Shown here: positions 551-44,563 of the stretch, piece after piece
Layout: every line of letters begins with the position of its first letter
How positions within the stretch are numbered: the first letter of the stretch is position 1
Source of the DNA: a virus
Virus record (IMG/VR): IMGVR_UViG_3300049617_000358
Location: 1-49,352 of that record
Reading direction: 5' to 3' (one strand)
DNA length: 49,352 nt
Notes under the pieces: model-generated
Databases searched by the model: none
The model's input: the letters and a program-made list of their open reading frames with translations, nothing else
What the model was told of the DNA's origin: nothing
Translations under genes and position numbers: made by a program

Positions 551-560
551 GATATAGAAT
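551..560 (+). promoter_or_regulatory. Candidate late promoter element (GATATAG)
   Basis: GATATAGAAT lies directly after the terminator at 506-548 and 26 bases before the chaperone start codon. Similar GATATA(G/A) motifs occur 16 bases before the starts at 4856, 11765 and 33094. The position after a terminator and before a new transcription unit suggests a -10-like late promoter. T4 late promoters (TATAAATA) are comparable. No -35 element is apparent, and the evidence is only recurrence and position. Confidence 0.3.
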
Positions 561-4839: not shown

Positions 4840-4849
4840 GATATAGGGA
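4840..4849 (+). promoter_or_regulatory. GATATAG motif before the hub gene
   Basis: GATATAGGGA begins 16 bases before the ATG at 4856, in the 22-base gap after the stop at 4833. Part of it (AGGGAAAG) can act as the ribosome binding site. The same motif at the same distance precedes the gene at 11765, and a GATATAA variant precedes that at 33094. It is either a late promoter element or only a shared ribosome-site context. Confidence 0.25.
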
Positions 4850-11750: not shown

Positions 11751-11758
11751 TATAGAAA
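11749..11758 (+). promoter_or_regulatory. GATATAG motif before the membrane-like baseplate gene
   Basis: GATATAGAAA starts within the stop codon of the spike gene (TGA 11748-11750), 16 bases before the ATG at 11765. The downstream AGAAAGA part may also serve as a weak ribosome site. It is the same motif and distance as at 4840. Promoter function is inferred from recurrence only. Confidence 0.25.
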
Positions 11759-30100: not shown

Positions 30101-31182
30101 TTGTTTCCAACGCCTCGCTGACTAACGATCAGGTTCGCTTTTCGGTTTCGGTCCAATCCTTTTCTCCAAATACCAATGGACTTTCCCCTTCTGGATGGAG
30201 CGGAGCTATTGTTGATGGAAAGATGGGGGTTGCTCTTGATCCTACAACGGGTGTTCTAACCCTTAATTTTACCAATCTCTATCAGGATGCTGTTCTTCGA
30301 ACCTTGAATACCAAGGTTCAGGTACAAGTTTATCTGAAACGCGGTGGATTTAATAACGAGCCATTGTTTGTCAATAGCACGCAGCTTTCCAATCTTCTTT
30401 CTTTGAGCAGCATTTTTTCTGGGGCTAATAATGCTACGGTAGCATCTCTGATTGATTTAACCTCAGATGTTTCTGGGATTTTGCCCATTGCTAATGGTGG
30501 AACAGGATTGGGGACAGTTGGTCCGGATGGGTATGTCCTAGTTTCTACTGGAACAGGTTTAGCTTATCAACCTCCTGGAGCCTCTGTTCCCCAGAGGTTG
30601 ATGCTGGTTTCTAACCTGGTATCGCAGAATAATGGGAGTAATTCTAGCCCTGTCTCCCTCAATGTTCTCAATCCAGCTTTGGATTTTCCTGGAGCAAACA
30701 GCTTTATATTTCAGGGAACTTTTTGGACGGACAAATTTAACAGTCCAAGCAATTGGGCAAGAAACACCTCATACAATGTTGGTAATTGGGTACAAAATAT
30801 CGGTCCGGGTGGTGGAGAAATTCTCTATGTTTGCACTACATCTGGGGTATCTAGCTCTTCTGGTTCCGGTCCATCTGTTCTTGGAACAGGGATTACAGAC
30901 GGAACAGTTGTCTGGCGGAGTGCCAATGTTTCCATTGAGCTGATTAATGATGTTGGCGGAACCCCTATTGTTATAGCTACTTTTAGCACTAGCTATACGC
31001 TTTTAGCGGCGACATCTCTCGGCTATCCTAATCTTCGTTTCTCGATAGATGTCTCCTCGGTCTTTAACACAGTTTCTGGATATAATCTCTTCCTAATCAA
31101 TCTTGTCGGAGATACAGCGGACACCGGAGGGACAAAATATACCACCATGGTCTGCGGCGGTTCCTGGCTTCTGGTCTCTTGA
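27157..31182 (+). CDS. Tail fiber / receptor-binding protein with dockerin-type calcium loops
   Basis: 1341 residues. Residues about 588-612 contain GDVNGDGIINQADLDLLETY, a textbook dockerin/F-hand calcium loop plus helix. A second loop, ADIDGDFVVSFEDGYLLQAY, occurs at about 744-766, separated by a beta module instead of the usual short linker. Near residues 1107-1120 stands SGILPIANGGTGLG, the common tail-fiber shaft motif. The C-terminal 140 residues include a WARNTSYNVGNWVQ segment and TDGTVVW, a pattern seen in small carbohydrate-binding repeats of phage fibers. The protein probably trimerises and contacts the host surface. The stop codon TGA (31180-31182) is part of the -35 box of the next gene's promoter. 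Confidence 0.75.
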   Translation: MTKRNPVSAPQNIWSDAQQVDNVDLTLEQNYNNIISSGIINNQVGSGVLPESLSQPILFDSSLATGFLDGEPNAPQVQPSDNNLGNQLEITLQNSLVSQRRRVKICIIGLDFQSNLQYEVFFFKENEIQVSKKHFTQILTILFNDFIGDPTLSLNLGGEIIIKEAKPLEISRDAIMVSQDSQPALFFRDFFVGAGYSSLTALLTAALPLYNVSSLSFNTQPLGTQFIYSGDVTTQVGQKFLASSNNIQKISVLLAVQNTGNPSDLIWNGDLIVSIYQLQSTIVSPSDIAPSLPIEFDPAPVPITQISFNYSSLQSTGTVLNGVFQPVDFVFSNSPIAGGNTIVPGNYYAFTVKRAGAANKCDILIATGGNTNVPNSWVTLFNGTLWVDLQEQDLWFQIWTDAAKVSDGQYYESGQGAIIPKTQLNESSGITVDYSLGQLSFVSNDIYHVIASTQSVDSNPQPDPRTGNPIQTQQEVVPNIELLNSIDTANLEQASEPLIIGAITDKNIKFYNSISSTITAGLHAATIVENQLIVRIVDDPTDTVRFDNTDSALISDLLNGYFVNAMITPDTGNLALSYRIASVELVSSILGDVNGDGIINQADLDLLETYAGFNMNIGLSPNSTVTTDGYHTTFVNGYNAQTVPFTNAFGISFQLVNTANNAVLYSGNDGVLVANPSNVRQAQFTSASVNFSNVIGISSYVLLINTPSVAANYGAFSITALDATSDVITLQKVFLSGDVLMEMLRADIDGDFVVSFEDGYLLQAYIDRQALTITQPSGFTGPTTNPYSKIGTRFNAIRFQLEAFVDRNDDYSTTVPGRSTAIHLLPDIFLADSNIWGRNFYTSPMTITILKELSWDESLITVNSIPRLVPTIFSSLSGLIVNPCTINGQVISKYEVPPVFDPGLVDVFSPNNVIIGTGELTRPNGAPYKVDFEVGTIILEIPDGLFIAEKSVNLMDDFIADYTGDGRTRLGYPSMRFADCSFVSNASLTNDQVRFSVSVQSFSPNTNGLSPSGWSGAIVDGKMGVALDPTTGVLTLNFTNLYQDAVLRTLNTKVQVQVYLKRGGFNNEPLFVNSTQLSNLLSLSSIFSGANNATVASLIDLTSDVSGILPIANGGTGLGTVGPDGYVLVSTGTGLAYQPPGASVPQRLMLVSNLVSQNNGSNSSPVSLNVLNPALDFPGANSFIFQGTFWTDKFNSPSNWARNTSYNVGNWVQNIGPGGGEILYVCTTSGVSSSSGSGPSVLGTGITDGTVVWRSANVSIELINDVGGTPIVIATFSTSYTLLAATSLGYPNLRFSIDVSSVFNTVSGYNLFLINLVGDTADTGGTKYTTMVCGGSWLLVS

Positions 31183-31207
31183 CAGTGTTCCCTTGATGGG
31201 TTATCAT
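31179..31207 (+). promoter_or_regulatory. Sigma70-type promoter of the glycosyltransferase gene, leaderless geometry
   Basis: TTGACA (31179-31184), 17-base spacer, TATCAT (31202-31207). Transcription would start about 31214, at the ATG at 31215. The first T of the -35 to the A of ATG is 36 bases, identical to promoters at 39352 and 44339. The -35 contains the stop codon of the upstream fiber gene. Confidence 0.7.
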
Positions 31208-31214
31208 GCCTTCT

Positions 31215-32354
31215 ATGAAGGTTTGCTGGATAGGATTTTTAGGCAAAAATCATTCTTGGTCAATTGTTGGACAGAATATTTCCCGAGAAATGATTAGGCG
31301 AGGCATTGGTGTCGATCTTTTTTCCACCAACGGCACCTCTCATTTCCCGGAGGATTTGCGAGCAAACTTACGGGGCTCGATGGAAGAGGGTACAACACTG
31401 TCCGAGCAGGAGTTTGACAAGAAGCTTCTTGACGTTGGGATTGGGAAAGCTTACGATTTAGCTATAAGCTATACTGCTCCTAAGAATTTTCGTCCTTATC
31501 TATCTCGCAGCACGGGGAGACGATTTGGTATTTGGTGCTATGAATGGGAAAGGTTCCCAGAAGGATTTGCTCGTGGGCATGTTTATGCTAGTCTAATTCT
31601 GGCTCCCTCTGAATTTGCAAAAAAGTTATGGATAGATAATGGTGTTCCCAAGGAGAAGGTCATCGTTCTTCCTCATGGAATTAATCTCGATGATTTTGCT
31701 GTTCCCGCGATGGATCTTGGTTCAAAGAAAAAGAAAATTCTGGTTAATATTGGGCAGCCTCATTTGCGCAAGAATATCAAGGGAATGTTGGATGCTTATG
31801 GTAAAGCATTTTCTAAAAATGATAATGTTATCCTAATCGCTAAAATTGCCAAAAAGGAATTTTCCAAGCTTTCTCAATTTGAGGTGCATGTTCCGAGCTT
31901 ATTTGAGGATTTTTATAAGACCTATCCTCAGCATGCCCAGGTCAAATTAATTTCTGAATTCCTGCCAAATATGGCAGGACTTTACAACGCCTGCGATATT
32001 GTTTTTACCATGAGCTATTCTGAGGGTTTCTATCTTCCTGGGTTAGAGGCGCTAGCGGCAGGGAAGATTAATGTTTGCCCAAGATATGGTGGTCAACTAG
32101 ATTTCTTGAATGATGATAATGCTGTTCTTTTAGACGGAAAGATGATCCGAGCAGATGTAAAAATGCAATATTGGAGTGGTCATCCCCAAAATTCCTGCTT
32201 TTCAGCAGATGCCGCCTCAGCGGCAGTTAAGCTTCGAGAGACCGTAGAAAATTATGAGAAGATGCATGCTAAATTCCTTCCCAAGATGCAGGAAAAACTT
32301 CCCGAATATTCCTGGTCAAGAGTAGTCGATCAGATCCTCGATAAATGCAAGTAA
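31215..32354 (+). CDS. GT4-family glycosyltransferase
   Basis: 379 residues from the ATG at 31215. An ATG at 31206 is in frame but lies inside the predicted -10 box, so 31215 (MKVCWIGFLG) is preferred. The fold reads as GT-B: an N-terminal Rossmann start, a middle HGIN segment (LPHGINLDDF, about 151-160) and the donor-binding motif SEGFYLPGLEALAAG (about 275-289). The latter contains the E-x7-E pair of family GT4. These enzymes are retaining transferases that use nucleotide sugars. Its acceptor is unknown: phage DNA bases, a virion protein such as the neighbouring fibers, or host surface glycans. An SDR epimerase 1.7 kb downstream could supply a modified sugar. No membrane segment, so cytoplasmic. 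Confidence 0.85.
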   Translation: MKVCWIGFLGKNHSWSIVGQNISREMIRRGIGVDLFSTNGTSHFPEDLRANLRGSMEEGTTLSEQEFDKKLLDVGIGKAYDLAISYTAPKNFRPYLSRSTGRRFGIWCYEWERFPEGFARGHVYASLILAPSEFAKKLWIDNGVPKEKVIVLPHGINLDDFAVPAMDLGSKKKKILVNIGQPHLRKNIKGMLDAYGKAFSKNDNVILIAKIAKKEFSKLSQFEVHVPSLFEDFYKTYPQHAQVKLISEFLPNMAGLYNACDIVFTMSYSEGFYLPGLEALAAGKINVCPRYGGQLDFLNDDNAVLLDGKMIRADVKMQYWSGHPQNSCFSADAASAAVKLRETVENYEKMHAKFLPKMQEKLPEYSWSRVVDQILDKCK

Positions 32355-32423
32355 ATTACCACCAGCACAAGGCTGATCTCTATTCTTGGTAAAATATCAT
32401 AAAATATTCAATTTGAAAGAAAT

Positions 32424-33084
32424 ATGCCGGAATTAGCTGAAGTCAAAATTATCTCTGACCAAATCAAGCCTTTGGTTTTTGGAAAGCAAATTATCAATGC
32501 TATTCCTGGAAATACAGGAAGATATCGTCAAAATAATCCGGAAGGATTTGAAGACTTTCTTAAAGAGATTACTCTACTGCCTAAGGTTGTAGAGGTGAGA
32601 ACTCATGGTAAGCTTATGATTTGGGATTTCTCCAATGATTTCCACATGTTATGTAATTTTGGTATGACCGGAAGATGGATTTGCCAGGATGTTCAATTGG
32701 ATATGGAGAAGCATGCTTGCTTTTCTCTTGATCTGAATGATGGTAAGAGGATAGTTTTCCTTGATCCTCGACATTTTGGCAGCATCAAATTTATCCGTGG
32801 ACAGGAAAAGGTTGATCAGAAGCTGGCAGCCTTAGGCTGGGACTGCTTACAGCAGGAATTGACAGAGCAGGTTCTGTTAGATATTAGCTGTAAATTGAAA
32901 GGGAATCGCGTAATTGGTTCCGATTTGCTTGATCAGTCAATCTTCTAATGAAGGAAAATTCTCTTTTTTCTTCCAGGTCTATGGAAGAAAGACCGATCCT
33001 GATGGTAAACCTGTCAAGAAAGAAAAGACTCCTGAGGGAAGAGTGATCCACTGGGTACCTGATGTTCAAAATTCCACGATATAA
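32424..33084 (+). pseudogene. Broken Fpg/Nei (MutM-type) DNA glycosylase
   Basis: The intact-looking first part (32424-32948, 174 codons) has the family start MPELAEVK with catalytic proline 2 and glutamate 3. It also has the conserved lysine in THGKLMIWDF (about residue 63) and NFGMTGRW. It stops in LLDQSIF, exactly where the helix-two-turn-helix domain should begin. In the next frame, 32950-33084 encodes NEGKFSFFFQVYGRK and then EKTPEGRVIHWVPDVQ, which looks like the C-terminal zincless finger of the same family. About 80 residues that bind DNA are missing and the two parts are out of frame. This suggests an internal deletion in a once complete base-excision repair gene. The 174-residue N-terminal domain may still be made but would be unlikely to cut DNA. 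Confidence 0.68.
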
Positions 33085-33087
33085 GGA
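33078..33087 (+). promoter_or_regulatory. GATATAA motif before the membrane-anchored gene
   Basis: GATATAAGGA begins 16 bases before the ATG at 33094, the same distance as the GATATAG motifs at 4840 and 11749. AAGGA also serves as a good ribosome binding site. Late-promoter function is a guess from recurrence. Confidence 0.22.
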
Positions 33088-33093
33088 AACGCT

Positions 33094-34077
33094 ATGAATA
33101 CATTATCTAAAATTCTGGTTGCTCTTTTGGCTTTAGGATTGGTTGGAGCCCTAGGCTTTATCGTCTATCAAAATCACGAAATGAAGGTTCAGCAAGGATT
33201 AATCTCCCAACAAATGCTTGCTCAGAAGCAGCTAATCGATGGGATTACTCGCTCCTCGGAGCAGTATGCTACCAAGGATGACATCAACAAATTCATTTCT
33301 GATAATGGGATCAATTTAAAAGCTATCCAGGACGATTTACAATCTCTGCATGCCCAGATTTCAGCGGCAAATGTTATCACCGTTTCTTCCTCTGGACAGA
33401 ATGGAACTTCACTCCCTTCAACGGGGACAGGGACAAAGAACCCGGTAGTGGTTACATCACCTGATCCTTATGGCTATCTAAAAGCAACGCAGCTTTTCTC
33501 ACTCGATGAGGACTTTCAAGGAGGAGTGAAAGTACCTTTTGGACAGGTGGGTTTTTCGGCTTTTCAAAGCAAGCCATGGAGCTTTACGGTTTCTCCTAGA
33601 GAGTACAAGATTACGAACGTCATAGGGACTGACGAGAACCAAAAGACCTATGTCTATAACAAAATGACCATCCATTCTGGAAGTACAGATTATGATGTCA
33701 AGATAACCTCGGCAGAGACCAAGCAGGAGCTTCCTCAGGCAAGCTGGTCTTTTTGGAATCCTCGTCTATATTTGGCGGCAACGGCTGGTATTTCTATTCA
33801 GCAACCGGTAGTTAAGGTGACCGGACAGGTTACGCCTAGCTTGAACTTTTCTTTCATTAGCTATGGACAATTTAAGAACCAGCCCGATTTATCATTAGCT
33901 CAAATTGGTCTTGGTATGGGCTTAGTGGATGTTAAACCTCAAATTGTTCTCGTACCAATTGCCTATAGAATTGGTAAGCAGGTAGATTTTATTAGGAGTA
34001 CATATATTGCCCCTAGTTTAGGTATAGGAACAAATGGAAGCTTTAATATTGGGGCTGGGGTAACAATAGGACTCTAA
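33094..34077 (+). CDS. Membrane-anchored coiled-coil protein, possible spanin-like
   Basis: 327 residues. One hydrophobic helix at about 5-25 (ILVALLALGLVGALGFIVYQ) is followed by a helical region to about 95, then a serine/threonine/glycine linker (about 100-125). A beta-rich C-terminal domain follows, whose last 110 residues alternate hydrophobic and polar residues and end in FNIGAGVTIGL, like amphipathic strands of an outer-membrane hairpin or barrel. An inner-membrane anchor plus periplasm-spanning helix plus possible outer-membrane strands resembles a spanin, the protein that fuses the envelope in lysis of Gram-negative hosts. No holin or endolysin is visible nearby, so this is only a suggestion. 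A host-surface exclusion or virion protein is also possible. Confidence 0.5.
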   Translation: MNTLSKILVALLALGLVGALGFIVYQNHEMKVQQGLISQQMLAQKQLIDGITRSSEQYATKDDINKFISDNGINLKAIQDDLQSLHAQISAANVITVSSSGQNGTSLPSTGTGTKNPVVVTSPDPYGYLKATQLFSLDEDFQGGVKVPFGQVGFSAFQSKPWSFTVSPREYKITNVIGTDENQKTYVYNKMTIHSGSTDYDVKITSAETKQELPQASWSFWNPRLYLAATAGISIQQPVVKVTGQVTPSLNFSFISYGQFKNQPDLSLAQIGLGMGLVDVKPQIVLVPIAYRIGKQVDFIRSTYIAPSLGIGTNGSFNIGAGVTIGL

Positions 34078-34970
34078 TGTCTAACAAAATCCTTCTCACC
34101 GGTTCTTGTGGTTTTATTGGAGGAAATCTATTAAGACAATGGATGTCTAATGACAAGATCATTTCCATTGATCGGATTTCCAAGCCAGAAAACAATGCTT
34201 CCGTTTATAATAAAGGACATGTTTTCCATATTGCCGATCTTAGAGATAGACATATCACCGAGCAATTGCTTCAATATGAAATGCCTGAGGTTGTTGTTCA
34301 CACGGCGGGTGAGCAGGAAGGGGAGGATTTGTTCTCTTCTAATGTCCGAGGAACGGAAAATCTGGTTTCTGCCTGTATTAAGAGCCGTGTGGCAAAGCTA
34401 ATTTATGTCAGTGATGCCAAGGTCTTTTCTCCCGGGGTAAATCTAACCGAAAGTTCGCCAACTATCCCTTCTTCTATCTATGCTTTGTCTAAAAAGTCGG
34501 CGGAGGATGTAGTTAGAATTCTCTGTCAAAAAGCTGGATTGTCTTATTGTATTGTCCGGGTAGGGGAGATTTACGGTTTCCGTCAGGATGTTAGCCAGCC
34601 TGTTCCCAAGGTTATTCGGGCGATGGTTAAGGGGGAGAGGGTGCTTTTATCGTCCAGGAGCATTTGTCCAATTAACATTGGGGATGTAGGATCTGGTATA
34701 GGGATGGTTATTTCTCGGGGTATTTCGGGGGAGATTTACAATTTAGGAGCCAGCAACGATATATCGGAGATTGAGCTGGGGCAGAAGATTTGTAATGCTA
34801 TGGGTCGGGGTCATGAGCTGCTCTCTTCTTCGGGGAAGGAGGAGGAACCGATTATATCCCTTGACAACTCTAAGATTAGAGGATTAGATTGGGAGCCATC
34901 TTGGAAATTGACCAAGGGCATTGAGAAGATAGTCTCCTGGTATTTGGCTAATCCTTATTATTTGAGATAA
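34077..34970 (+). CDS. NAD(P)-dependent sugar epimerase/dehydratase (extended SDR)
   Basis: 297 residues. Start ATG overlaps the upstream stop (TAATG). The N-terminal Rossmann motif TGSCGFIGG (about 8-16) gives the extended-SDR GxxGxxG. The catalytic tyrosine and lysine are in YALSKK (about 138-143), and a serine lies in YVSDAKVF upstream. The central VRVGEIYG and later GEIYNLGAS segments are characteristic of the UDP-glucose epimerase/dTDP-glucose dehydratase superfamily. It probably converts a nucleotide sugar in the cytoplasm. With the GT4 enzyme nearby, a phage-encoded sugar modification pathway is plausible. The exact substrate cannot be read from the sequence. Confidence 0.85.
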   Translation: MSNKILLTGSCGFIGGNLLRQWMSNDKIISIDRISKPENNASVYNKGHVFHIADLRDRHITEQLLQYEMPEVVVHTAGEQEGEDLFSSNVRGTENLVSACIKSRVAKLIYVSDAKVFSPGVNLTESSPTIPSSIYALSKKSAEDVVRILCQKAGLSYCIVRVGEIYGFRQDVSQPVPKVIRAMVKGERVLLSSRSICPINIGDVGSGIGMVISRGISGEIYNLGASNDISEIELGQKICNAMGRGHELLSSSGKEEEPIISLDNSKIRGLDWEPSWKLTKGIEKIVSWYLANPYYLR

Positions 34971-34985
34971 GCCTCTTGACGAGGC
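34971..34985 (+). promoter_or_regulatory. Palindrome over the -35 box (possible operator)
   Basis: GCCTC (34971-34975) and GAGGC (34981-34985) are a perfect inverted repeat around TTGAC. They overlap the -35 hexamer TTGACG of the tubulin-like gene promoter. A regulator binding here would block RNA polymerase. Alternatively the RNA hairpin could weakly terminate the upstream transcript, but no T tract follows. Confidence 0.4.
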
Positions 34986-35004
34986 ATGGAGTGGTTGTTA
35001 TATT
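34976..35004 (+). promoter_or_regulatory. Sigma70-type promoter of the tubulin-like gene
   Basis: TTGACG (34976-34981), 17-base spacer, TATATT (34999-35004). Predicted start near 35011, leaving a leader of about 14 bases that includes AGGAG before the ATG at 35025. Best-matching promoter in the window that has a normal ribosome site. Confidence 0.75.
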
Positions 35005-35024
35005 GGGGGAGGTAGGAGAAAACT

Positions 35025-36362
35025 ATGGCTGTAAGGCACATGATTACACAAGAGGAAACAGAGAAAATGGTTGATGATATTAGCGACGCGGGCGCGGTAG
35101 ATATGGGGAAACTGGCGGCATTGAAAGCCAAGAGCAAAGAGAAAGAGGCAGCGGTGTCAAAGATTGTGGCAAAAAAAGAGAGAGCTCTAAATTTTGGCGT
35201 CCTTGGGACAGGGCAAGGAGGATCGCGTCTTGCTGAGAGTTTTTTTGCTCTTGGATATGACGCAGTTATTTGCAATACAGCCACGCAAGACCTCAAGTTT
35301 TGTAATCTACCAGACAGCAATAAATTGTTGCTTGAATATGGTGTTGGTGGAGCAAGCAAGGAATTAAGTATTGGTGCAAGTGCAGCGGAAGCACATCGTG
35401 CCGAAATATTGCAGTTGGTCAATGAGAAGCTCGGATCGTCACAGATTAACATTCTCTGCACCTCTCTTGGTGGCGGATCTGGTGCGGGCTCTGTCGAGAC
35501 GATGATCGATGTTCTTACCGAGATTGGTAAGCCAATTTTAGTTTTATCGATTCTTCCCATGGAAACTGAGGACGCACAAGCCAAGGCAAATAGCGTAGAA
35601 ACACTCAGTAAATTAACCGCCATGGTTAAATCCAAGAAGATCGCTAATCTTATCTGCGTCGATAATGCTAAGATCGAAACGATCTATGCCGATGTTTCTC
35701 AGATGGATTTTTATGGCGTAGCTAATCGCGCCATCGTAAATCCGATTGATGCATTCAATACGCTTAGTGCAATGCCAAGCTCCTCCAAAGGTCTTGATCC
35801 AATGGAGCTGACAAAGCTTCTAATTGATGGTGAGGGTCTTTCAATATTTGGTGAGCTGGTTGTATCCAATTTCCAGGAAGATACTGCTTTGGCTGAGGCG
35901 GTAATTGGAAATCTCAATGACAATCTTTTATCTGGCGGTTTTGATTTGAAGCAAACGAAATATGCTGGTTTTATTTTGGCGGCGAATGCCCAGGTATGGG
36001 CAAAGATTCCAAGCAGCAGCGTGAATTATGCGGTCGCAATGGTGAATGAACTTGCCGGGACTCCACGCTCAGTATTTAAGGGCATCTATGTCACAGACGA
36101 TCCATCGCCTGTTGTCAAGGTTTATTCCTTTTTCTCTGGGCTGCACCTGCCAGCAACTCGTGTGGATCAGTTGAAGAAAGACGCGGCTGAATTGCAGGGT
36201 AAAGGCAAGGTTAAAGATGCTGCTAGGGAACAGGGAATGGTTCTTGATACTGGCACAAATGATACAGTCTCGGCAGCACAGAAAATTCGTGAGAAGGTAG
36301 CCGCCAAAAACTCCACCTTTGGTAAATTTCTGGGTGGATCAGTATCTGATCGACGGAAGTGA
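35025..36362 (+). CDS. FtsZ/tubulin-like GTPase (phage cytoskeletal protein)
   Basis: 445 residues. After a charged N-terminal extension of about 55 residues (lysine/alanine/glutamate-rich) comes the first nucleotide-binding loop, FGVLGTGQGGSRLAE. The tubulin signature GGGSGAGS follows at about 149-156 in CTSLGGGSGAGSVET. LDPMELTKLL (about 256-265) aligns in place with the T7 loop of FtsZ, with acidic residues D and E where FtsZ has its two aspartates. GTP hydrolysis on polymerisation is therefore likely. The C-terminal tail is basic and may bind DNA or a partner. Known phage tubulins (PhuZ, TubZ types) position or segregate phage DNA. It has its own promoter and an operator-like palindrome. 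GC-rich codons near the 5' end differ from those of neighbours, hinting at separate acquisition. A host FtsZ inhibitor-like paralog is an alternative. Confidence 0.82.
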   Translation: MAVRHMITQEETEKMVDDISDAGAVDMGKLAALKAKSKEKEAAVSKIVAKKERALNFGVLGTGQGGSRLAESFFALGYDAVICNTATQDLKFCNLPDSNKLLLEYGVGGASKELSIGASAAEAHRAEILQLVNEKLGSSQINILCTSLGGGSGAGSVETMIDVLTEIGKPILVLSILPMETEDAQAKANSVETLSKLTAMVKSKKIANLICVDNAKIETIYADVSQMDFYGVANRAIVNPIDAFNTLSAMPSSSKGLDPMELTKLLIDGEGLSIFGELVVSNFQEDTALAEAVIGNLNDNLLSGGFDLKQTKYAGFILAANAQVWAKIPSSSVNYAVAMVNELAGTPRSVFKGIYVTDDPSPVVKVYSFFSGLHLPATRVDQLKKDAAELQGKGKVKDAAREQGMVLDTGTNDTVSAAQKIREKVAAKNSTFGKFLGGSVSDRRK

Positions 36363-36365
36363 TCT

Positions 36366-36575
36366 ATGCCTGAAAAATTGACCTTGGTGGGATTTATTAA
36401 TCGAAGTAATGTTAAGCATGGCTTCAAATATGATTACTCGCAGGTAGCGTATATCAATAATTACACCAAGGTCAAAATTGGCTGTCCAACACATGAACCT
36501 TTTGAGCAAAGACCAAAAGATCATCTCTCGTGGAGATGGGTGTCCCAAACAAGTCAAATATTGACTTCTCCATAA
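36366..36575 (+). pseudogene. Fragment of a homing-endonuclease-type DNA-binding domain
   Basis: Residues about 8-55 match the repeat found in front of many free-standing phage and mobile-intron nucleases: FINRSNVKHGFKYDYSQVAY, then TKVKIGCPTHEPFEQRPKDHLS. The family then continues with a GCPKC knuckle. Here the expected RGDGCPKQVKY sequence occurs in the +1 frame from about 36523 to its TGA at 36562-36564. The gene is therefore frameshifted as well as cut short, with no nuclease domain after it. It begins 3 bases after the tubulin-like gene. The TGA of the shifted frame lies inside the -35 box of the next promoter. A remnant of a mobile endonuclease is the most likely reading. Confidence 0.6.
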
Positions 36576-36588
36576 TCGTCCTTAATAT
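36561..36588 (+). promoter_or_regulatory. Sigma70-type promoter before the Sm-like pair
   Basis: TTGACT (36561-36566), 16-base spacer, TAATAT (36583-36588). The predicted start near 36595 is only about 5 bases before the ATG at 36600, and no ribosome site fits. The mRNA would be almost leaderless. It would drive the two Sm-like genes and the helicase. Confidence 0.6.
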
Positions 36589-36599
36589 GATAGAAATCG

Positions 36600-36842
36600 A
36601 TGCTCGATCTTTTCCTAGCACAGAATAATGGACAACAGATTACGATCTATTTAAAGCTTGGAGAGGTCCTCCGAGGAACACTAACTGTCGAAATGACCGC
36701 TGAGGAGAGCGGAGAAAGAATGTTTTCGATTACACGACACCAAAAAGATGGAAATGGCGGGTTGTTCGCTATCAAAAGCTTTTTTAATCAGGAAGCTGTC
36801 TCCTATTTTGAGATAAGCACAGAAAATGAAAGGGTTTTGTAA
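36600..36842 (+). CDS. Small Sm/Hfq-like protein A
   Basis: 80 residues. The pattern NGQQITIYLKLGEVLRGTLTV (about 10-30) resembles the first strands of the Sm fold, in which a bent sheet carries a NG or LKNG turn and a glycine before the third strand. The middle (30-60) is a longer variable loop and the end (AVSYFEIST) could be the last strand. Sm/Hfq proteins form rings that bind RNA. It is followed at once by a second, more Hfq-like protein (stop TAA then ATG). RNA binding is inferred from fold resemblance only. It has no membrane segment. Confidence 0.45.
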   Translation: MLDLFLAQNNGQQITIYLKLGEVLRGTLTVEMTAEESGERMFSITRHQKDGNGGLFAIKSFFNQEAVSYFEISTENERVL

Positions 36843-37046
36843 ATGTTATTCTATATTTTGTCAGGTAAAAATGGAAAGACTGTCCGTCTCTGGATGGACA
36901 ACGGAATGCAGATCTATGGAACTCTCAACCATCAATTATCACCTAGTGGATCCTCGTCTTTCTTTATTAGCGATAATAGCTCGACGAAACATTATTTTGA
37001 CCATGATAAAGTGTCCAATTTTACTGTCTTAGAAGATAAGAGCTGA
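36843..37046 (+). CDS. Small Sm/Hfq-like protein B
   Basis: 67 residues, close to the Hfq core length. Residues 10-27 (KTVRLWMDNGMQIYGTL) resemble the Hfq strand 1-2 region, including the hydrophobic-NG-hydrophobic turn and following G. The FFISDNSSTKHYFDHDKVSNFTVL segment corresponds to strands 3-5, where Hfq has a YKHAISTVVP end. The start immediately follows the upstream stop and the stop overlaps the helicase gene by one base, so all three genes are co-translated. Role suggestion: RNA chaperone or subunit of a hetero-ring with the upstream protein. Confidence in the fold is moderate and in the function low. Confidence 0.5.
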   Translation: MLFYILSGKNGKTVRLWMDNGMQIYGTLNHQLSPSGSSSFFISDNSSTKHYFDHDKVSNFTVLEDKS

Positions 37047-38521: not shown

Positions 38522-38522
38522 A

Positions 38523-38903
38523 ATGGAAATGCTTCTTTTGCCTCAGTTGATTGATCTCTTCCATTTAGGATTTATCTTTCTTCTTATTGTCTGTACGCCC
38601 TTCCTATTTTTAAAGAAATGGAGATGGAGAAAGATCAGAATTTGGACAACATGTTATGCTATAGCTTTCGTCCTAATTAATAGGGTTGGGCATTGGATTT
38701 GGGGAGAATGTTTTTTGACGAGATTAGCTCGTCTGGCAGGAGGAAGCGATTGGGGAGACGAACTATTTCTCTCCAAGATTTCGAGAATGTTCTTCGGATC
38801 TGCCCCAAGCGCAGATCAACTTCTCATTTTTGAGCAAGCAGCCATGGGATTGGTTTGCTTAGGCATTTTGATCTCTCTTCTCAGAGAATGGAGAAAGCTA
38901 TGA
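38523..38903 (+). CDS. Small membrane protein (DUF2784-like)
   Basis: 126 residues with three or four hydrophobic stretches (about 10-30, 42-60, 100-122). The order LIDLFHLGFIF, KKWRWRKIRIW and VGHWIWGECFLTRL resembles DUF2784 proteins, small bacterial membrane proteins of unknown function. It begins one base after the helicase stop and its stop overlaps the next start (ATGA). A lysis-timing or superinfection role would be guesswork. Confidence 0.6.
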   Translation: MEMLLLPQLIDLFHLGFIFLLIVCTPFLFLKKWRWRKIRIWTTCYAIAFVLINRVGHWIWGECFLTRLARLAGGSDWGDELFLSKISRMFFGSAPSADQLLIFEQAAMGLVCLGILISLLREWRKL

Positions 38904-39250
38904 TCTATCATGATCCGATAGTAGATAGATTTGTCTTTAATCTTTCTCAGGATATAGTCACCATCTTACCAGATGGAAATATTTTGCTGGTGGATGGCAT
39001 ACATCAGGTATTCGTCTGGACAAGGAAGAAGAACCTGCGAGCCTGGCATGTTAGTCAGGATTACTATGGTTTTAGCATGCCTTCCTCGGATGAGGATTAG
39101 AAGAATCTAATCCAAATTGCCATTAAAAGCAACCCAGAAAAGGATGATTGGACAGTCTGTCTCGTCGTCAATGATGGTTGGGATGCTTTCGGATTTAATG
39201 CTGCTCCAGCTCTTCTCCGTAAGCTAATCCGATTTCAATCCTTTGAATAA
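38900..39250 (+). pseudogene. Small gene interrupted by an in-frame TAG
   Basis: The start ATG at 38900 overlaps the upstream stop (ATGA); an in-frame ATG at 38888 is possible. The frame encodes 66 residues (DPIVDRFVFNLSQDIVTILP and following) to TAG at 39098-39100. It then continues with 49 sense codons of normal-looking protein (IQIAIKSNPEKDDWTVCLVV, then DGWDAFGFNAAPALLRKLI) to TAA at 39248. No start codon of the ATG type is available for the second part. One CAG-to-TAG change would explain it. TAG ends several other genes in the window, so general recoding is unlikely. Function unknown. The short product may still be made. Confidence 0.5.
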
Positions 39251-39256
39251 TTCAAT

Positions 39257-39298
39257 CTCTCTTAGAGAGTAGAAGAGGTTCTTGATGATTTTTTTTTT
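39257..39298 (+). terminator. Weak terminator-like element with long T run
   Basis: CTCTC (39257-39261) and GAGAG (39265-39269) form a small inverted repeat, and a run of ten T follows at 39289-39298. The stem is not adjacent to the T run. A second weak stem (AGAA/TTCT) lies between. The gap 39251-39351 separates two transcription units, which makes termination reasonable. Confidence 0.3.
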
Positions 39299-39351
39299 GG
39301 AAAGGAAATCGTCAGCCAGTCTCCTCTCCAAGAGTAGGATAGGCGCCCGGC

Positions 39352-39380
39352 TTGACATCTTCCACCTCCCTCCCTACCAT
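39352..39380 (+). promoter_or_regulatory. Sigma70-type promoter with leaderless geometry
   Basis: TTGACA (39352-39357), 17-base spacer, TACCAT (39375-39380). The ATG at 39388 is 36 bases from the first base of the -35, as at 31179 and 44339. An in-frame ATG at 39379 lies inside the -10 box and could not be on the transcript. Confidence 0.65.
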
Positions 39381-39387
39381 GGGAACC

Positions 39388-39723
39388 ATGGACGACGAGG
39401 AGATTGTGCAGATATGGGCGGTCTACTGCCCATATATGCAGGAACAGCGCTATCTGCAATTACCATCTATTCACATGGATACGGAGTTCTATTATTGTCT
39501 TTTAAATCGATTTGATGACATAGGGATAAAATACGGTTTACCCCACGATTTGACCAGACAGCTTTTTTCCAATAAGCAAAAAGATACGATGATCTTGCTT
39601 ATCCGAGACGATAAACACAATCCTTTATTTTATAAATATTTGATGATTGATACTACAATGATCTGCTTCCTGGAAAATCTAAAAATCACTAAGCAAAACT
39701 ATAAGATGAGAGCATTTCAATGA
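39388..39723 (+). CDS. Hypothetical protein, first gene of the replication operon
   Basis: 111 residues from the ATG at 39388, chosen because the upstream in-frame ATG (39379) and TTG (39352) are within the promoter. Acidic start (MDDEEIVQIW), then mixed helix and strand, no membrane segment, and a basic end (KQNYKMRAFQ). No motif recognised. Its stop overlaps the next gene by 4 bases (ATGA), beginning a run of coupled genes that leads to the helicase loader and helicase. A regulatory or replication-accessory role is a guess. Confidence 0.5.
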   Translation: MDDEEIVQIWAVYCPYMQEQRYLQLPSIHMDTEFYYCLLNRFDDIGIKYGLPHDLTRQLFSNKQKDTMILLIRDDKHNPLFYKYLMIDTTMICFLENLKITKQNYKMRAFQ

Positions 39724-40283
39724 CTGAGCAACCGTCCATCAGTAAAGCTTGGGATAAATTCCTGGCTAAATTCCACGAAATTGATACTCTGTCCACCAAA
39801 GATTGGAAACAGGTTCATCTTCTTTCATATTTTACCAGGAAGTATAAGGAGCAATTCGGGATAGACTATTCCCTAAAATTTAATACTACAGCACCAGGCT
39901 CCTCTTTTGAGATTTTTCAGATCAATCGTCTTCGTGTCCAGTTGACCTCTGATCCTGTTGCCCTACGGAATTATATTGATTGGATCTTCCAAGATAAGGC
40001 AAATTTAGGCAAACGACGATTTACCTCCATCTCCTTCCTGACCAAGGAAGAGTTTCTGGGGGAATATAAACGAAATGTTCTCTTTGCTTCGGCAGCTAAA
40101 ATTGATAGAAGCACACCTCTTCCAGAGCATTATTCTCAGATTTTTGCTGGAATGAGGATAAAGACCTATGGCGATTTAGCATTCCTATCGCAAATGAGCA
40201 GTCCACCACCCAATGTCAAAAATGCCTTTGCCCAGCTAGATGAGCAGGGATTTGATAAGAGCATTCTTGGGAAAATTGTATGA
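39720..40283 (+). CDS. Hypothetical protein of the replication operon
   Basis: 187 residues, soluble, mostly helical, coupled by ATGA overlaps to both neighbours. The middle (SLKFNTTAPGSSFEIFQINR, then RNYIDWIFQDK and RRFTSISFLT) looks well ordered. I do not recognise the family. Its position upstream of the DnaC-like and DnaB-like genes suggests a replication accessory function, such as a primosome or recombination mediator component, but no catalytic motif is seen. Confidence 0.5.
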   Translation: MTEQPSISKAWDKFLAKFHEIDTLSTKDWKQVHLLSYFTRKYKEQFGIDYSLKFNTTAPGSSFEIFQINRLRVQLTSDPVALRNYIDWIFQDKANLGKRRFTSISFLTKEEFLGEYKRNVLFASAAKIDRSTPLPEHYSQIFAGMRIKTYGDLAFLSQMSSPPPNVKNAFAQLDEQGFDKSILGKIV

Positions 40284-40570
40284 CGTGGAAAAAGCAAATA
40301 GATTACGAGATGTGTTACCTGTTACAGGAACAAAATCTTAAATTAAAGGATGTGCTGGATTTGTTAAAATCTGCTTCAGTTAAACATCATTATGTTAATT
40401 ATCGAGAAAATGAATTTTATGCATCATCTTTAGAAGATGATAAGAAATTACCACCATTTCGATTTATTTATCTAGAGTTTAGAGAAACAAAGGAAGTTGT
40501 TAATATTCTATATGTTTTTATTACTCGCGAAATGCTGATTAAATTAATTAAAATGAGAGCTTGGATATAA
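40280..40570 (+). CDS. Hypothetical protein
   Basis: 96 residues starting within the upstream stop (ATGA). It begins with a helix (QIDYEMCYLLQEQNLKLKDV) and then a strand-rich part (FRFIYLEFRETKEVVNILYV). No known motif or membrane segment. Codons are AT-rich compared with neighbours, especially at 40320-40560. Confidence 0.45.
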   Translation: MTWKKQIDYEMCYLLQEQNLKLKDVLDLLKSASVKHHYVNYRENEFYASSLEDDKKLPPFRFIYLEFRETKEVVNILYVFITREMLIKLIKMRAWI

Positions 40571-41031
40571 CAGGCAAAACTAATCATATTTGTATGGTTA
40601 ATTTTTTTGGAAAAGGGTTCAGCTATACCTCAGCAGTTCCAGGGGATAAACAAGAAGAACCTAAAAATCCTTCAAATCCTCTCATCCTCCTTAAAGGAGC
40701 TGACGTTCAACTATCTAGTCGTCTCATTGCCTTGGGCATGGATGCTGATTTTAACCATTTACGAGATGTTTTGGCAGAACATAAGATAGGACAAAGACGC
40801 AATTACCTGATGCATGTCATGATCCCCTCGATACAAGCTACTTGTCTTTCTTTCTGGGAGTTCCTCTATGGTAGAGAAGCGACTCCACCTAAAACTACCG
40901 TCATCTTTCCCTGGAATAATGGAAATTGCGCCCATAATGACGGATCTTGTCCGCCCTGTGATTTAGTCATTTTTCTAAATGCTCCTGCTGCTGAAATTAA
41001 CCGCTTACTGGATATGGCTGCTTTCCTATGA
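40561..41031 (+). CDS. Hypothetical protein with cysteine cluster
   Basis: 156 residues if started at TTG 40561, which overlaps the upstream gene by 10 bases and follows a weak GAGAG site. An ATG at 40594 gives 145 residues but has no ribosome site. A helical, basic middle (about 65-110) is followed by CAHNDGSCPPCDLVIFLN (about 124-141), whose three cysteines and one histidine could bind zinc. The stop overlaps the next gene (ATGA). Family not recognised. Function may relate to replication given the operon. Confidence 0.45.
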   Translation: MDITGKTNHICMVNFFGKGFSYTSAVPGDKQEEPKNPSNPLILLKGADVQLSSRLIALGMDADFNHLRDVLAEHKIGQRRNYLMHVMIPSIQATCLSFWEFLYGREATPPKTTVIFPWNNGNCAHNDGSCPPCDLVIFLNAPAAEINRLLDMAAFL

Positions 41032-41381
41032 ACCCAGAGATTGGACAATTTGTTCGTTGTTTCCTTCGCAATGGTACCATGGTGGAAGGGTTTGTTAGGT
41101 CTTGGTCAGATGGCAAATCCGTACTTTCCTCCAAGGATGGCTACAACCTCCTCCTGATCATGGATACAGCTCAGGATGTCTACATGGTAAAAATCCAGCT
41201 TGTCTCTCCGGATAAAGCTAAAACCATCTTGACAGAAGCCTTCGAGAAGGTTAAGAATGAAACCTCTGGGCACGATCTGTCCCGCCTCCGATCCCTAGCG
41301 GAGCTACGGATGGCTATGGGAGAACAAGAGAGAAAAATGGTAGCCGAAAAATTAACAGAACATACAGTGAAATTGGGCTAA
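41028..41381 (+). CDS. Sm-like protein with helical tail (C)
   Basis: 117 residues. The first 57 (IGQFVRCFLRNGTMVEGFVRSW, then DGYNLLLIMDTAQDVYMVKI) fit the Sm-fold pattern of strand, RNG turn, strand ending in glycine, two more strands. They resemble the two small proteins at 36600-37046. The last 60 residues are helical and charged. It directly precedes the DnaC-like loader (2-base gap). Possible role: RNA or single-strand DNA binding accessory of primosome assembly (inference). Resemblance is pattern-level only. Confidence 0.45.
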   Translation: MNPEIGQFVRCFLRNGTMVEGFVRSWSDGKSVLSSKDGYNLLLIMDTAQDVYMVKIQLVSPDKAKTILTEAFEKVKNETSGHDLSRLRSLAELRMAMGEQERKMVAEKLTEHTVKLG

Positions 41382-41383
41382 AT

Positions 41384-42079
41384 ATGGATATGGATTTCTC
41401 TCGATGTAAGGCTCTCAATAATATTCCAGCCAAAAAGCTCTCTGACAGAATTGTTGGAATTAATGCTCTTCCTGGTGATCCTCTTGCCAAGAGCATGAAA
41501 TTAATGGCAATTTCTCGATTTCAGGAGAGCAACATACCGGTCGAATATTGGGATTTAAAAATGGATAAAGATTTCCATGGAGATCCTAATCTCCTTTCCA
41601 AATTCACCGAATTTACTGCTGATCTAAAACAAAGCTATACCTCAGGAGCATCTCTTTGCTTTGCTGGGGCTCATGGGAGGGGAAAGACGATGACATCCTG
41701 CTGCATTCTTAAAAAAGCCGCTCTTAAAGGTTTTTCCTGTCTTTATACTACTCTATCTGATGCTGTGTCTGCTTCCCTGCAAGACAATGGTTTTTCTGCT
41801 AAACGAGAAATGACCATGGTTGATTTTCTTGTTTTGGATGAGGTTGATCCTCGTTTTATTGGTTCTGATAAGGCAGCAGATCTCTATGCCAGGAGCTTAG
41901 AAGGGGTATTCCGGACGAGGAGCCAGAATAAATTACCAACCATTCTTTGTACTAATTCCCCGAATGTTCTGAAATCCTTTTCTGGAGCTTTAGAGCAGAG
42001 CATAGATAGTCTTTTTTCGGATAGAATGGAGATAGTTCCAGTTTTTGGCGATGATTTTAGGAAGAAAGAAACGACATGA
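41384..42079 (+). CDS. DnaC/IstB-like AAA+ ATPase, helicase loader
   Basis: 231 residues, typical for DnaC-like loaders. An N-terminal helical domain (1-80) would bind the helicase. The Walker A motif is GAHGRGKT (about 95-102) and Walker B is VDFLVLDEVD (about 146-155). TILCTNSP follows as sensor 1, and SDRM near the end contains the arginine of the sensor/finger region. Such ATPases open the DnaB ring and place it on DNA. The gene is followed by the DnaB-like gene with an ATGA overlap, so loader and helicase are co-translated. Confidence 0.88.
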   Translation: MDMDFSRCKALNNIPAKKLSDRIVGINALPGDPLAKSMKLMAISRFQESNIPVEYWDLKMDKDFHGDPNLLSKFTEFTADLKQSYTSGASLCFAGAHGRGKTMTSCCILKKAALKGFSCLYTTLSDAVSASLQDNGFSAKREMTMVDFLVLDEVDPRFIGSDKAADLYARSLEGVFRTRSQNKLPTILCTNSPNVLKSFSGALEQSIDSLFSDRMEIVPVFGDDFRKKETT

Positions 42080-43467
42080 GCTATAATCTAGATTTGGTCA
42101 TCTTAAAAACACTAATACTTAATAAAAAGTATGCTCTAGATTTTGCTAATGAGCAGGATGCCAAGCTCTTCTCTCCAGAAGTATGGAATTTTGCCAATAT
42201 TCTTCTTTCCTATCTCAAAGCCTATAAAGAATTGCCTACCTTGCGAGTTCTCTCCGAGCGGGCAGGGAAGAATGATAAGATTGTTGAGAATATCCAGAAA
42301 ATCTGGGATGCTGCCATAGCCCAAGAATATGATGAGAAGGAATTCCCTCATGATCTGGAACGTCTGCAAAAGCGTTTTGCTAATAAGCAGCTCTCATCGT
42401 TAAAAGAGAAATTAAACTCTTTATCTGATGATGCTCCGATTGATAAGAGCATCATGGAGATCACCAAATCCTTAAAACAAATTGAAAGTACCGGTAAAAG
42501 CAGTCTTTACACCAGCAAATCTGTCAAAGAATATCTGGGAACATTCGTCGAGCAATTCAAGGCAAAACGAGCTAATCCAGAATTAGAGCAGGGCGTTTTG
42601 ACGGGATACTCCTTCTTAGACTACGCTACCAATGGTATTCGAGAGGCGGATATGCTTTTGATCGCCGGGGAGAGTGGCTTTGGTAAGTCTCTTTTCCTCA
42701 ATAATATTGCGGTGCAGACCTGGTTGCAGAAGAACTCTGTCGATGATACGGAATTTAAGCCTGGGAAGAGTGTTATCTATTTTTCCCTGGAAATGCCCTA
42801 TGAAGATTGTTTTAATCGTTTCCTTGGTCGTTTGGCGGGGGTAGAGACCCGGCATTTAGAGAAGCCGGGATTAGTTTCTCGGGAGGAGTTTACCAGGATT
42901 AAGAAAGCTCTCGATTTCATTGATCGTTATCCTAATGTCTTCAAGATTGTCGATATTTCTGATGCTTGTGCTAATGATTTGGAGGCAATTCTGGATGATG
43001 CTGCTGAGGATTTTGACACAATCTTTATAGATTATCTAGGGATTATGAAGTCCAATAAGGATACAGACGAGCAGGATTGGCTAAAACAAGGCAAAATAGC
43101 CTATGAGGTTCGAGCTATAGCTCGGAGGAAACAGCGTCCTATCTTCTCGGCGGTGCAGCTTAATCGTAAGTCTCCAGGGAAAGAGGGGGCGGAGAGTATT
43201 GGTCTTTCCCGTCTAGCACGATCGGGGACGATTGCTACCCATGCTACCCATGTCATTCAGATTGAAAATCGTCCAAATGAGGAATTACATAATGATTTCC
43301 TTTATCATATCATCAAAAATCGCAAGGGACCTAAGGGAAAGGGCATTCTAATTAAGAACCTTCCCTGCGGAACTCTGATTGACCAATGCTTGGATAATGA
43401 GAAATTTGAGAACGATTTTACTGAATATCTGCCAGATATATCAGAATTAGAAGAACTTGATTTATGA
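42076..43467 (+). CDS. Replicative DNA helicase, DnaB-like
   Basis: 463 residues. The N-terminal part (about 1-110) is helical like the DnaB N-domain. The linker is followed by TGYSFLDYATNGIREADMLL, then Walker A GESGFGKS (about 198-205). Walker B is TIFIDYLG and the H3-type segment FSAVQLNR follows. A basic NRKGPKGKG loop occurs near the C-terminus as in RecA-fold hexameric helicases. Unwinds DNA at the replication fork 5' to 3'. No primase domain is fused, so a primase is expected elsewhere in the genome or from the host. The stop is overlapped by a 59-residue gene. Confidence 0.9.
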   Translation: MSYNLDLVILKTLILNKKYALDFANEQDAKLFSPEVWNFANILLSYLKAYKELPTLRVLSERAGKNDKIVENIQKIWDAAIAQEYDEKEFPHDLERLQKRFANKQLSSLKEKLNSLSDDAPIDKSIMEITKSLKQIESTGKSSLYTSKSVKEYLGTFVEQFKAKRANPELEQGVLTGYSFLDYATNGIREADMLLIAGESGFGKSLFLNNIAVQTWLQKNSVDDTEFKPGKSVIYFSLEMPYEDCFNRFLGRLAGVETRHLEKPGLVSREEFTRIKKALDFIDRYPNVFKIVDISDACANDLEAILDDAAEDFDTIFIDYLGIMKSNKDTDEQDWLKQGKIAYEVRAIARRKQRPIFSAVQLNRKSPGKEGAESIGLSRLARSGTIATHATHVIQIENRPNEELHNDFLYHIIKNRKGPKGKGILIKNLPCGTLIDQCLDNEKFENDFTEYLPDISELEELDL

Positions 43468-43643
43468 AGCGAGACGAAGAAGCTATTGGAACAGCCATAA
43501 GAATGGAGTATTCAGAGATTGATGGAAAGCTTTTTATTGTTTTTGAGATTACCTCGGAAAGGCATCGGCAGAGGATGATGCGTGAATGGTGCGAAGATAT
43601 TGAATTTCGTATCGTTGGGAAAGATTTAGTCCCCGTTGCTTAG
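43464..43643 (+). CDS. Small hypothetical protein
   Basis: 59 residues starting at an ATG that overlaps the helicase stop (ATGA), ending with TAG at 43641-43643. Starts MKRDEEAIGTAIRMEY and contains a basic helix (SERHRQRMMREWCEDIEF). The overlap and the sensible composition support translation. Function unknown. Confidence 0.5.
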   Translation: MKRDEEAIGTAIRMEYSEIDGKLFIVFEITSERHRQRMMREWCEDIEFRIVGKDLVPVA

Positions 43644-43703
43644 ACCAAGCAGCCAACTTGGCTTCGTATCCAAGCTTTCTTTTAGCAAAGAGATGTCTTT
43701 CTG
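43644..43703 (+). other. Intergenic hairpin region
   Basis: The gap contains CCAAG (43645-43649) pairing with CTTGG (43657-43661) around a 7-base loop, and an alternative AGCCAA/TTGGCT stem. A T-rich stretch CTTTCTTTT follows about 15 bases later. It could be a weak terminator after the helicase operon or a leader hairpin of the next gene. No clear promoter was seen. Confidence 0.3.
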
Positions 43704-44000
43704 ATGATCATACCGCAATATTACATTGATAATGTTGTTCTTGCCGCTAAGAACTTTTCCCATGTTATGGTAGATAGGGAGATATTTGACATTCTTATAG
43801 ACAGACTGCTGATTAGCAAAGAAACAGATAGTAATCTATATTATCATCTTATTTCTTTGCCAGAGACTAGATTAGTCTGGAATTTGTTTTCCCATAATCA
43901 GGGACCATCGCTGATGGTTCTTCTGAATTATTCAGAATGGTCTGATCCTATCCTTATCAAAGATTTTAAAGCTTGGCTTCGTTTTCGATCTTTTCTTTGA
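43704..44000 (+). CDS. Hypothetical protein
   Basis: 98 residues, acidic-hydrophobic, no membrane segment and no recognised motif. Helices IIPQYYIDNVVLAAKNF and REIFDILIDRLLI are followed by a tryptophan-rich end (LVWNLFSH, YSEWSDPI, FKAWLRFRSFL). It lies between the helicase operon and the zinc-ribbon genes. Confidence 0.45.
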   Translation: MIIPQYYIDNVVLAAKNFSHVMVDREIFDILIDRLLISKETDSNLYYHLISLPETRLVWNLFSHNQGPSLMVLLNYSEWSDPILIKDFKAWLRFRSFL

Positions 44001-44030
44001 TTTGTGATATATTGAGATTTAGGAGTCCTA

Positions 44031-44342
44031 ATGGAATACGAACATGCCTGTAAAAACCCCGAATGCAATCACCAATGGATCGACGAATATTCGATGAAAG
44101 ATGATCCTCCGACCGAGTGTCCTGCCTGCCACCAGCAGACGGCTAAGCGTCTCATCTCTGGGGGATCTGGGAAGGGGATTGTCGAGCTTTCTGGCAATGA
44201 CCTGGTAGCTAAGGTTAAGAGCGATGCTGTCCAGATGCAGCGAGAAGCAGCGACCAACGAGAAGCAGTATGCTAATCTTCTAGGCGAAGCTCGCTATCAT
44301 GACATGCAGAGCCGCCTCGATCGAGCTAAGCGTCGAGGTTGA
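44031..44342 (+). CDS. FmdB-type zinc-ribbon protein with helical tail
   Basis: 103 residues. The N-terminus carries two CxxC-type pairs, C7/C12 (CKNPEC, one residue longer than CxxC) and CPAC (about 36-39), followed by AKRLISGGSGKG, the usual end of the FmdB zinc ribbon. The remaining 50 residues form a charged helix. Ribosome site TAGGAG (44020-44025). FmdB-like proteins are putative regulators of unknown mechanism. Its stop TGA (44340-44342) lies within the -35 box of the next gene's promoter. Confidence 0.72.
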   Translation: MEYEHACKNPECNHQWIDEYSMKDDPPTECPACHQQTAKRLISGGSGKGIVELSGNDLVAKVKSDAVQMQREAATNEKQYANLLGEARYHDMQSRLDRAKRRG

Positions 44343-44368
44343 CAAAAAAACCGCCCAAGTCATAGAAT
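44339..44368 (+). promoter_or_regulatory. Sigma70-type promoter with leaderless geometry
   Basis: TTGACA (44339-44344), 18-base spacer, TAGAAT (44363-44368), then 6 bases to the ATG at 44375. Distance from -35 start to ATG is 36 bases, as at 31179 and 39352. The -35 contains the stop of the upstream gene. Confidence 0.68.
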
Positions 44369-44374
44369 AAACTT

Positions 44375-44563
44375 ATGCCTTCATACACTTATAGCTGTTC
44401 TGTCTGCGGAGAATTTGAAAAAGAGCATTCCATTAAGGAAAAGCTAGAAAATTGTCCTACTTGTCTTGAACAAGGAAATACAAATCCTGTTGTCCGTCTA
44501 ATCTCCTCGGGAGGATCCTTTATCCTTCAAGGTAGTGGTTGGGCAAAAGATAATTATAAATGA
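44375..44563 (+). CDS. FmdB-type zinc-ribbon protein, short
   Basis: 62 residues, nearly all zinc ribbon: MPSYTYSCSVCGEFEKEHSI (CSVC pair), then NCPTCLEQ (second pair) and VVRLISSGGSFIL, the family signature end. Start chosen at 44375, no Shine-Dalgarno sequence, predicted leaderless. Second zinc ribbon in a row after the gene at 44031. The two share the fold but differ in length and spacing, suggesting an old duplication or separate acquisition. Confidence 0.75.
   Translation: MPSYTYSCSVCGEFEKEHSIKEKLENCPTCLEQGNTNPVVRLISSGGSFILQGSGWAKDNYK

Follow-up and report, generated by a model that had tools for sequence, protein, structure and literature searches.

In the jumbo-phage-like virus of IMG/VR record IMGVR_UViG_3300049617_000358, analyzed here over its entire 49,352 bases (the window), and in its uncultured relatives, a hexamer G[A/T]TATA was found in a fixed position, with its G about 15 nucleotides (nt) before the ATG of a subset of genes. 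As a whole, these data are quite probably best explained by a promoter that is read by the phage's own sigma factor and that, when placed at -15, gives a leaderless mRNA. In this clade of uncultured jumbo phages, leaderless expression as such seems to be real, the predicted RNA 5' end being placed at the AUG by the register of the box and by the initiator. The original prediction had ascribed leaderless genes in the window to TTGACA promoters at a fixed distance from the ATG; leaderless genes are indeed predicted in the clade, but via G[A/T]TATA at -15 and not via TTGACA.

The window carries baseplate, glycosyltransferase, TubZ, UvsW, DnaC/DnaB, sigma-factor, and ribonucleotide-reductase genes. 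As relatives, uncultured contigs with lengths of up to 452 kb were identified, and no cultured relative was found among 50,697 phage records for the window's virion protein (9744-11750) or its sigma factor. The box statistics were obtained from eight relatives with 3,516 starts, tiled and scanned piecewise. Some of these relatives (e.g., G001 and G002) are more closely related among themselves than to the others, and their box sites are therefore not fully independent.

The box was first seen by comparison of upstream regions, in which GATATA stood immediately ahead of several genes of the window and of the glycosyltransferase gene of the relatives. In the eight relatives, GATATA was the strongest positioned hexamer besides the Shine-Dalgarno (SD) sequences: with its G 15 nt before the ATG (d = 15) it preceded 42 of the 3,516 starts, compared with 4.0 at background positions and 1.2 before internal ATGs. 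GTTATA was the only single-base variant that was strongly enriched (25 vs. 3.2). Both hexamers together gave 58 sites at d = 15, 21 at d = 14, and 16 at d = 16, with approximately 5.9 expected per position; d = 15 sites were present in 8/8 relatives, most of them in G001, G020, and G017. The consensus reads (T)G[A/T]TATA(T)(A), and in approximately 2.4% of genes the distance from its G to the ATG is 14-16 nt (mode 15). At d = 15, the TATA starts at -13 relative to the ATG. Upstream of the box the composition was flat, no offset between -30 and -9 showed an enrichment of TTGA, and TTGACA was rejected as the -35 partner of the box for this lack of enrichment. Two glycosyltransferase genes (that of the window and one of G007, L059) have TTGACA 13-15 nt before the box, which was taken as a coincidence. 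Two other approaches to the motif were given up: the exact pattern GATATAGA-N4-10-ATG was weakly above control (27 + 19 vs. 17 + 11) and was replaced by the position-resolved analysis, and an unsupervised motif search in the SD-free starts converged on an A-rich sequence and was uninformative.

An SD was present in 12% of the boxed starts (14-16 nt) as compared with 48% of those with permuted hexamers placed at the same location (p = 1e-12). As the box itself occupies the SD space, such a control was required, and it ruled out a mechanical loss of the SD through the filling of that space. The SD fraction rose with box distance from 10% at 14-16 nt to 33-36% at 17-23 nt and about 74% at 24-33 nt, as would follow from an RNA 5' end about 12-15 nt downstream of the G. 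Directly before the ATG, C or T was found in 87% of boxed starts vs. 59% in the permuted control (p = 2e-8), and in 90% vs. 53% within the SD-free subset (p = 7e-13). If transcription begins (+1) at the A of the ATG, a pyrimidine-A initiator is expected, and such a pyrimidine would provide it. Codon 2 of the boxed starts was A-rich, which was counted in favor of real starts.

In one class of genes the box is coupled to the start codon and takes the place of the SD, which would also suit a translation signal; G[A/T]TATA at -15 would then be no promoter but an AT-rich site for ribosome standby or for S1. We regard this explanation as unlikely. The box also occurs 24-60 nt upstream of starts and is then followed by an SD; at these distances it was commoner before starts with an SD (128/1516) than before those without one (92/2000, p = 4e-6), as would be the case for a promoter that initiates at a fixed offset. 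Furthermore, the register of the box matches that of the T4 late promoters, and the pyrimidine before the ATG is a feature of an initiator.

For the promoter favored here, a candidate reader is encoded in the window:

44841..45470, + strand: phage sigma factor with regions 2 and 4, candidate box reader (Pfam Sigma70_r2, 6e-7; PHROG 351, 2e-14; sigma factors in PDB; AlphaFold and Foldseek)

This protein is 34-56% identical to its orthologs in the relatives, and exactly one sigma match per record was found in 9/9 records. An RNA polymerase beta subunit was detected in none of the nine records, and a phage-encoded multi-subunit RNA polymerase was discarded on this ground. We infer that the phage sigma reads the G[A/T]TATA box. 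PHROG 351 matched 11/11 sigma members and PHROG 234 only 1/11, at E = 0.008, so that the protein was not placed in the gp55 family. The sigma gene of several relatives (L084:1127-1750, L106:13694-14314, L139:16261-16890, L135:2573-3202) has a conserved element like AGTATAACA-N-TACTT approximately 15-40 nt upstream; it is possibly another promoter class or an operator and is not evident in the window.

In the proposed mechanism, host RNA polymerase equipped with the phage sigma would read G[A/T]TATA as a promoter and would initiate transcription, as at T4 late promoters, approximately 13 nt downstream of where the TATA begins. Given this register, a box at -15 should place the first transcribed base at the A of the ATG or at most 1-3 nt away from it, and the ribosome would directly bind the 5'-terminal AUG of the resulting leaderless mRNA. 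From a box at a greater distance, a leadered mRNA would arise, usually with an SD. In the window, genes 4856, 11765, and 33094 (box at -16) and gene 31215 (degenerate box at -15) would be expressed in the leaderless manner, without involvement of TTGACA.

In the T4 late promoters (TATAAATA, 8-bp; gp55/gp33/gp45), the TATA box lies about one helical turn ahead of the transcription start, and the TA occupies -13/-12 (PMC2988020). These promoters are also coactivated by gp33 and the sliding clamp gp45. The clade resembles them in the single TATA-type box without a -35 element, which starts 13 nt before the predicted start point, and in the presumed use of host RNA polymerase with a phage sigma. 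Unlike in T4, the box reads G[A/T]TATA(T) and departs from TATAAATA, the sigma has region 4 and is not clearly gp55, and the ATG can sit on the predicted start point. In the T4 late region, TATAAAT boxes within 80 nt of annotated starts all lay at least 22 nt before the ATG, nearly always with an SD, and thus the fusion with the start codon is what differs from T4. The T4 intron endonuclease I-TevI has a compact late promoter, and its late transcripts keep a ribosome-binding site (PMC2988022); homing-endonuclease domains are likewise over-represented among the boxed genes of the clade, which, unlike I-TevI, have no such site. Leaderless mRNAs are common in mycobacteria (PMC4633059). Those of the clade share with them the absence of a leader and of an SD and the AUG predicted at the 5' end, but they are predicted only, concern a gene subset, and would arise via one positioned phage box. 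AR9 encodes its own RNA polymerases and has mapped leaders of 26-491 nt (PMC5312081); the clade also consists of giant phages with promoter classes of their own, like AR9 and other phiKZ-type phages, but unlike in AR9 no polymerase beta gene was detected.

Among 84 boxed SD-free genes (L022-L174), the Pfam families HNH (6), LAGLIDADG_3 (5), GIY-YIG (4), and HNH_5 (3) were found, whereas a length-matched control gave two LAGLIDADG_3 and two GIY-YIG matches and no HNH family among the 25 listed. A boxed glycosyltransferase family recurs in five genomes. The excess of homing-endonuclease domains together with this recurrence suggests that the box is a portable expression cassette, and accessory genes may carry the short promoter along. 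It is possible, if somewhat short of probable, that the whole clade uses a 'start-codon promoter', i.e., a minimal box read by the phage sigma 15 nt before the ATG, which would form a self-contained cassette with neither leader nor ribosome-binding site, would serve mainly mobile or accessory genes (homing endonucleases, glycosyltransferases), and would perhaps be timed to a stage that favors leaderless translation. Most leaderless mRNAs of phages are, to our knowledge, isolated examples. In this giant-phage clade, which still uses the SD for many other genes, a subset of leaderless genes is predicted from a single positioned box, and the genes with the box at the start codon would skip the usual ribosome-binding step. 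With the box as a sequence rule, start points and start codons can be sought in genomes with no cultured member; the box also suggests how mobile genes bring a very short, context-independent expression signal, and lets one ask whether phages switch between leadered and leaderless translation.

The window genes were scored with a box score trained on the relatives, with p taken against internal ATGs. The close boxes and the gene behind the degenerate one are the following:

4840..4845, + strand: GATATA, 16 nt before ATG 4856 (p = 0.005)
11749..11754, + strand: GATATA, 16 nt before ATG 11765 (p = 0.0009)
33078..33083, + strand: GATATA, 16 nt before ATG 33094, with AAGGA directly after (p = 0.0009; mode ambiguous)
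31200..31205, + strand: GTTATC, degenerate box, G 15 nt before ATG 31215 (p = 0.023, weak alone)
31215..32354, + strand: glycosyltransferase gene, predicted leaderless (Pfam Glycos_transf_1, 2e-8)

The scores of the three GATATA copies stood out in the window, with approximately 0.2 genes expected at p = 0.005. Gene 11765 adjoins tail and baseplate genes and encodes a product of 715 amino acids (aa) of unknown function; its orthologs have the box at 17-28 nt in 8/12 cases, and at 16 nt in G001 and G002. For gene 31215, an intact GATATA/GTTATA was present in 12/20 orthologs (d = 14-15 in ten, 18 in two), most close orthologs having GATATA. Homologs of this gene begin at ATG 31215 and not at 31206, as the alignments start at residue 3-4 of the longer open reading frame (ORF). 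GTTATC was not enriched in the relatives, and therefore the activity of the window's copy is uncertain. The leadered form of the box was also found in the window:

551..556, + strand: GATATA, 26 nt before ATG 577, then SD-like GAGGAAA; leadered use (orthologs have the box upstream with an SD)
34997..35002, + strand: GTTATA, 28 nt before ATG 35025 of a TubZ-like gene (Pfam Tubulin, 4e-12), then an SD
44006..44011, + strand: GATATA, 25 nt before ATG 44031, then the SD TAGGAG; leadered form

Several points weigh against leaderless transcription from the box. The close boxes of the window stand at 16 and not 15 nt, and two of them have A before the ATG. The orthologs of gene 4856 and most of those of gene 33094 have no box at the corresponding place, and AAGGA lies immediately 3' of the 33094 box; given this sequence and the box at -16, this gene may have a one-base leader or be used in both ways. 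For boxes at d = 24-60, the initiator signal at the predicted start point was weak (pyrimidine-purine 0.33, offset 14/15). The start codons were called by a simple longest-ORF caller, the sigma factor and the box are linked by co-occurrence alone, and both the promoter activity of the box and its start point are predictions from sequence.

The TTGACA sites on which the original prediction was built are located in the window as follows, together with a fourth that had been described as nearly leaderless:

31179..31184, + strand: TTGACA, reported -35 box; overlaps the TGA stop of ORF 27157-31182 and is probably not part of the phage promoter
39352..39390, + strand: TTGACA-N17-TACCAT-ATG; box score p = 0.83, 0 homologs, no phage-box match, probably chance
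44339..44377, + strand: TTGACA-N18-TAGAAT-ATG before a zinc-ribbon gene; weak box-like CATAGA (44361-44366) at -14, p = 0.03
36561..36602, + strand: TTGACT, 39 bases before ATG 36600; box score p = 0.21, gene 36600 without orthologs

What had been read from the letters was confirmed. At 31179, 39352, and 44339 the ATG starts 36 bases after the first T, the -10 boxes TATCAT (31202), TACCAT (39375), and TAGAAT (44363) follow after spacers of 17, 17, and 18 nt, no SD precedes the ATGs at 31215, 39388, and 44375, and in-frame ATGs are indeed present at 31206 and 39379. The sites match the sigma-70 consensus in 11, 10, and 11 of 12 positions, with hexamers and spacing near consensus. The exact 36 depends on the second in-frame ATG in 2/3 sites, the longest ORFs giving 27, 27, and 36; the start at 31215 is backed by the homologs, and gene 39388 has no homolog for comparison.

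That host sigma-70 promoters of the TTGACA plus -10 type stand exactly 36 bases before the ATG and yield leaderless early or middle mRNAs is, in our judgment, improbable. In favor of it are the three sites themselves with their good hexamers and a mild excess of TTGACA near starts, seen in the window (20-60 nt before 4/37 starts vs. 0.61 expected) and in the relatives (70 vs. 34 scaled from internal ATGs). Sigma-70-type promoters were also commoner before starts of the relatives (60 vs. 15 scaled from internal ATGs), with no tie to the distance of 36. The excess makes some sigma-70 promoters likely, and the phage group probably has them, without a link to 36 bases. On the plus strand of the window, at least three hits at exactly 36 were reached in 0.25% of 400 dinucleotide shuffles, but at least three hits at any one distance between 24 and 45 in 8.7% of them; two-strand shuffles of the window gave 4/100. 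Beyond the window, TTGACA-N30-ATG occurred 43 times in 14 related records compared with 42 in the reversed control, and TTGACA at a distance of 36 preceded only 2/3,516 starts of the eight relatives, which excluded the pattern as a phage-wide signal. Where TTGACA stands 33-39 nt from a start in the relatives, an SD precedes the ATG in many cases. The sites were not conserved either: TTGACA was present in 1/20 orthologous upstream regions of gene 31215 and in 1/13 of gene 44375, and no ortholog was available for 39388. In the homologous upstream regions of gene 44375, an ordinary SD was found in 13/13 and the phage box in 0/13. With the control equal, two starts among thousands, and TTGACA rare in the orthologs, the hexamer at 36 bases is not a signal of the phage group, and the proposed promoter class with this fixed distance was not upheld.

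The three matching promoter spacings are thus mostly a coincidence. It is rather likely that the three sites are due to chance, with TTGACA containing the stop codon TGA of the gene before it, and that the downstream genes are translated from a read-through polycistronic mRNA or by coupling. At 31179 and 44339 the upstream ORFs terminate inside the hexamer (ends at 31182 and 44342), sigma-70-like sites in the window are at chance level (40 vs. 37.2 +/- 6.8), and the phage-box scores of genes 39388 and 44375 (p = 0.83 and 0.03) are at or near background. The box-like element of gene 31215 (p = 0.023), which shares its register with the orthologs, does not fit this explanation. Among the three genes singled out originally, the leaderless idea was therefore retained for 31215, with its degenerate box in register, while 39388 and 44375 do not belong to the group.

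Other features of the window were noticed as well. The adjoining genes 44031-44342 and 44375-44563 encode small zinc-ribbon proteins, and in the relatives both are conserved beside replication and sigma genes. The region 32424-32948 encodes an Fpg/Nei-type DNA glycosylase of 174 aa with a match to the N-terminal domain only, which may be truncated or frame-shifted. Finally, both ribonucleotide reductase genes (45470-47443 and 47461-49350) appear to carry inteins with Hint/LAGLIDADG-type inserts, as suggested by a Pfam Intein_splicing match (7e-11) in 47461-49350 and by split PHROG matches in 45470-47443.

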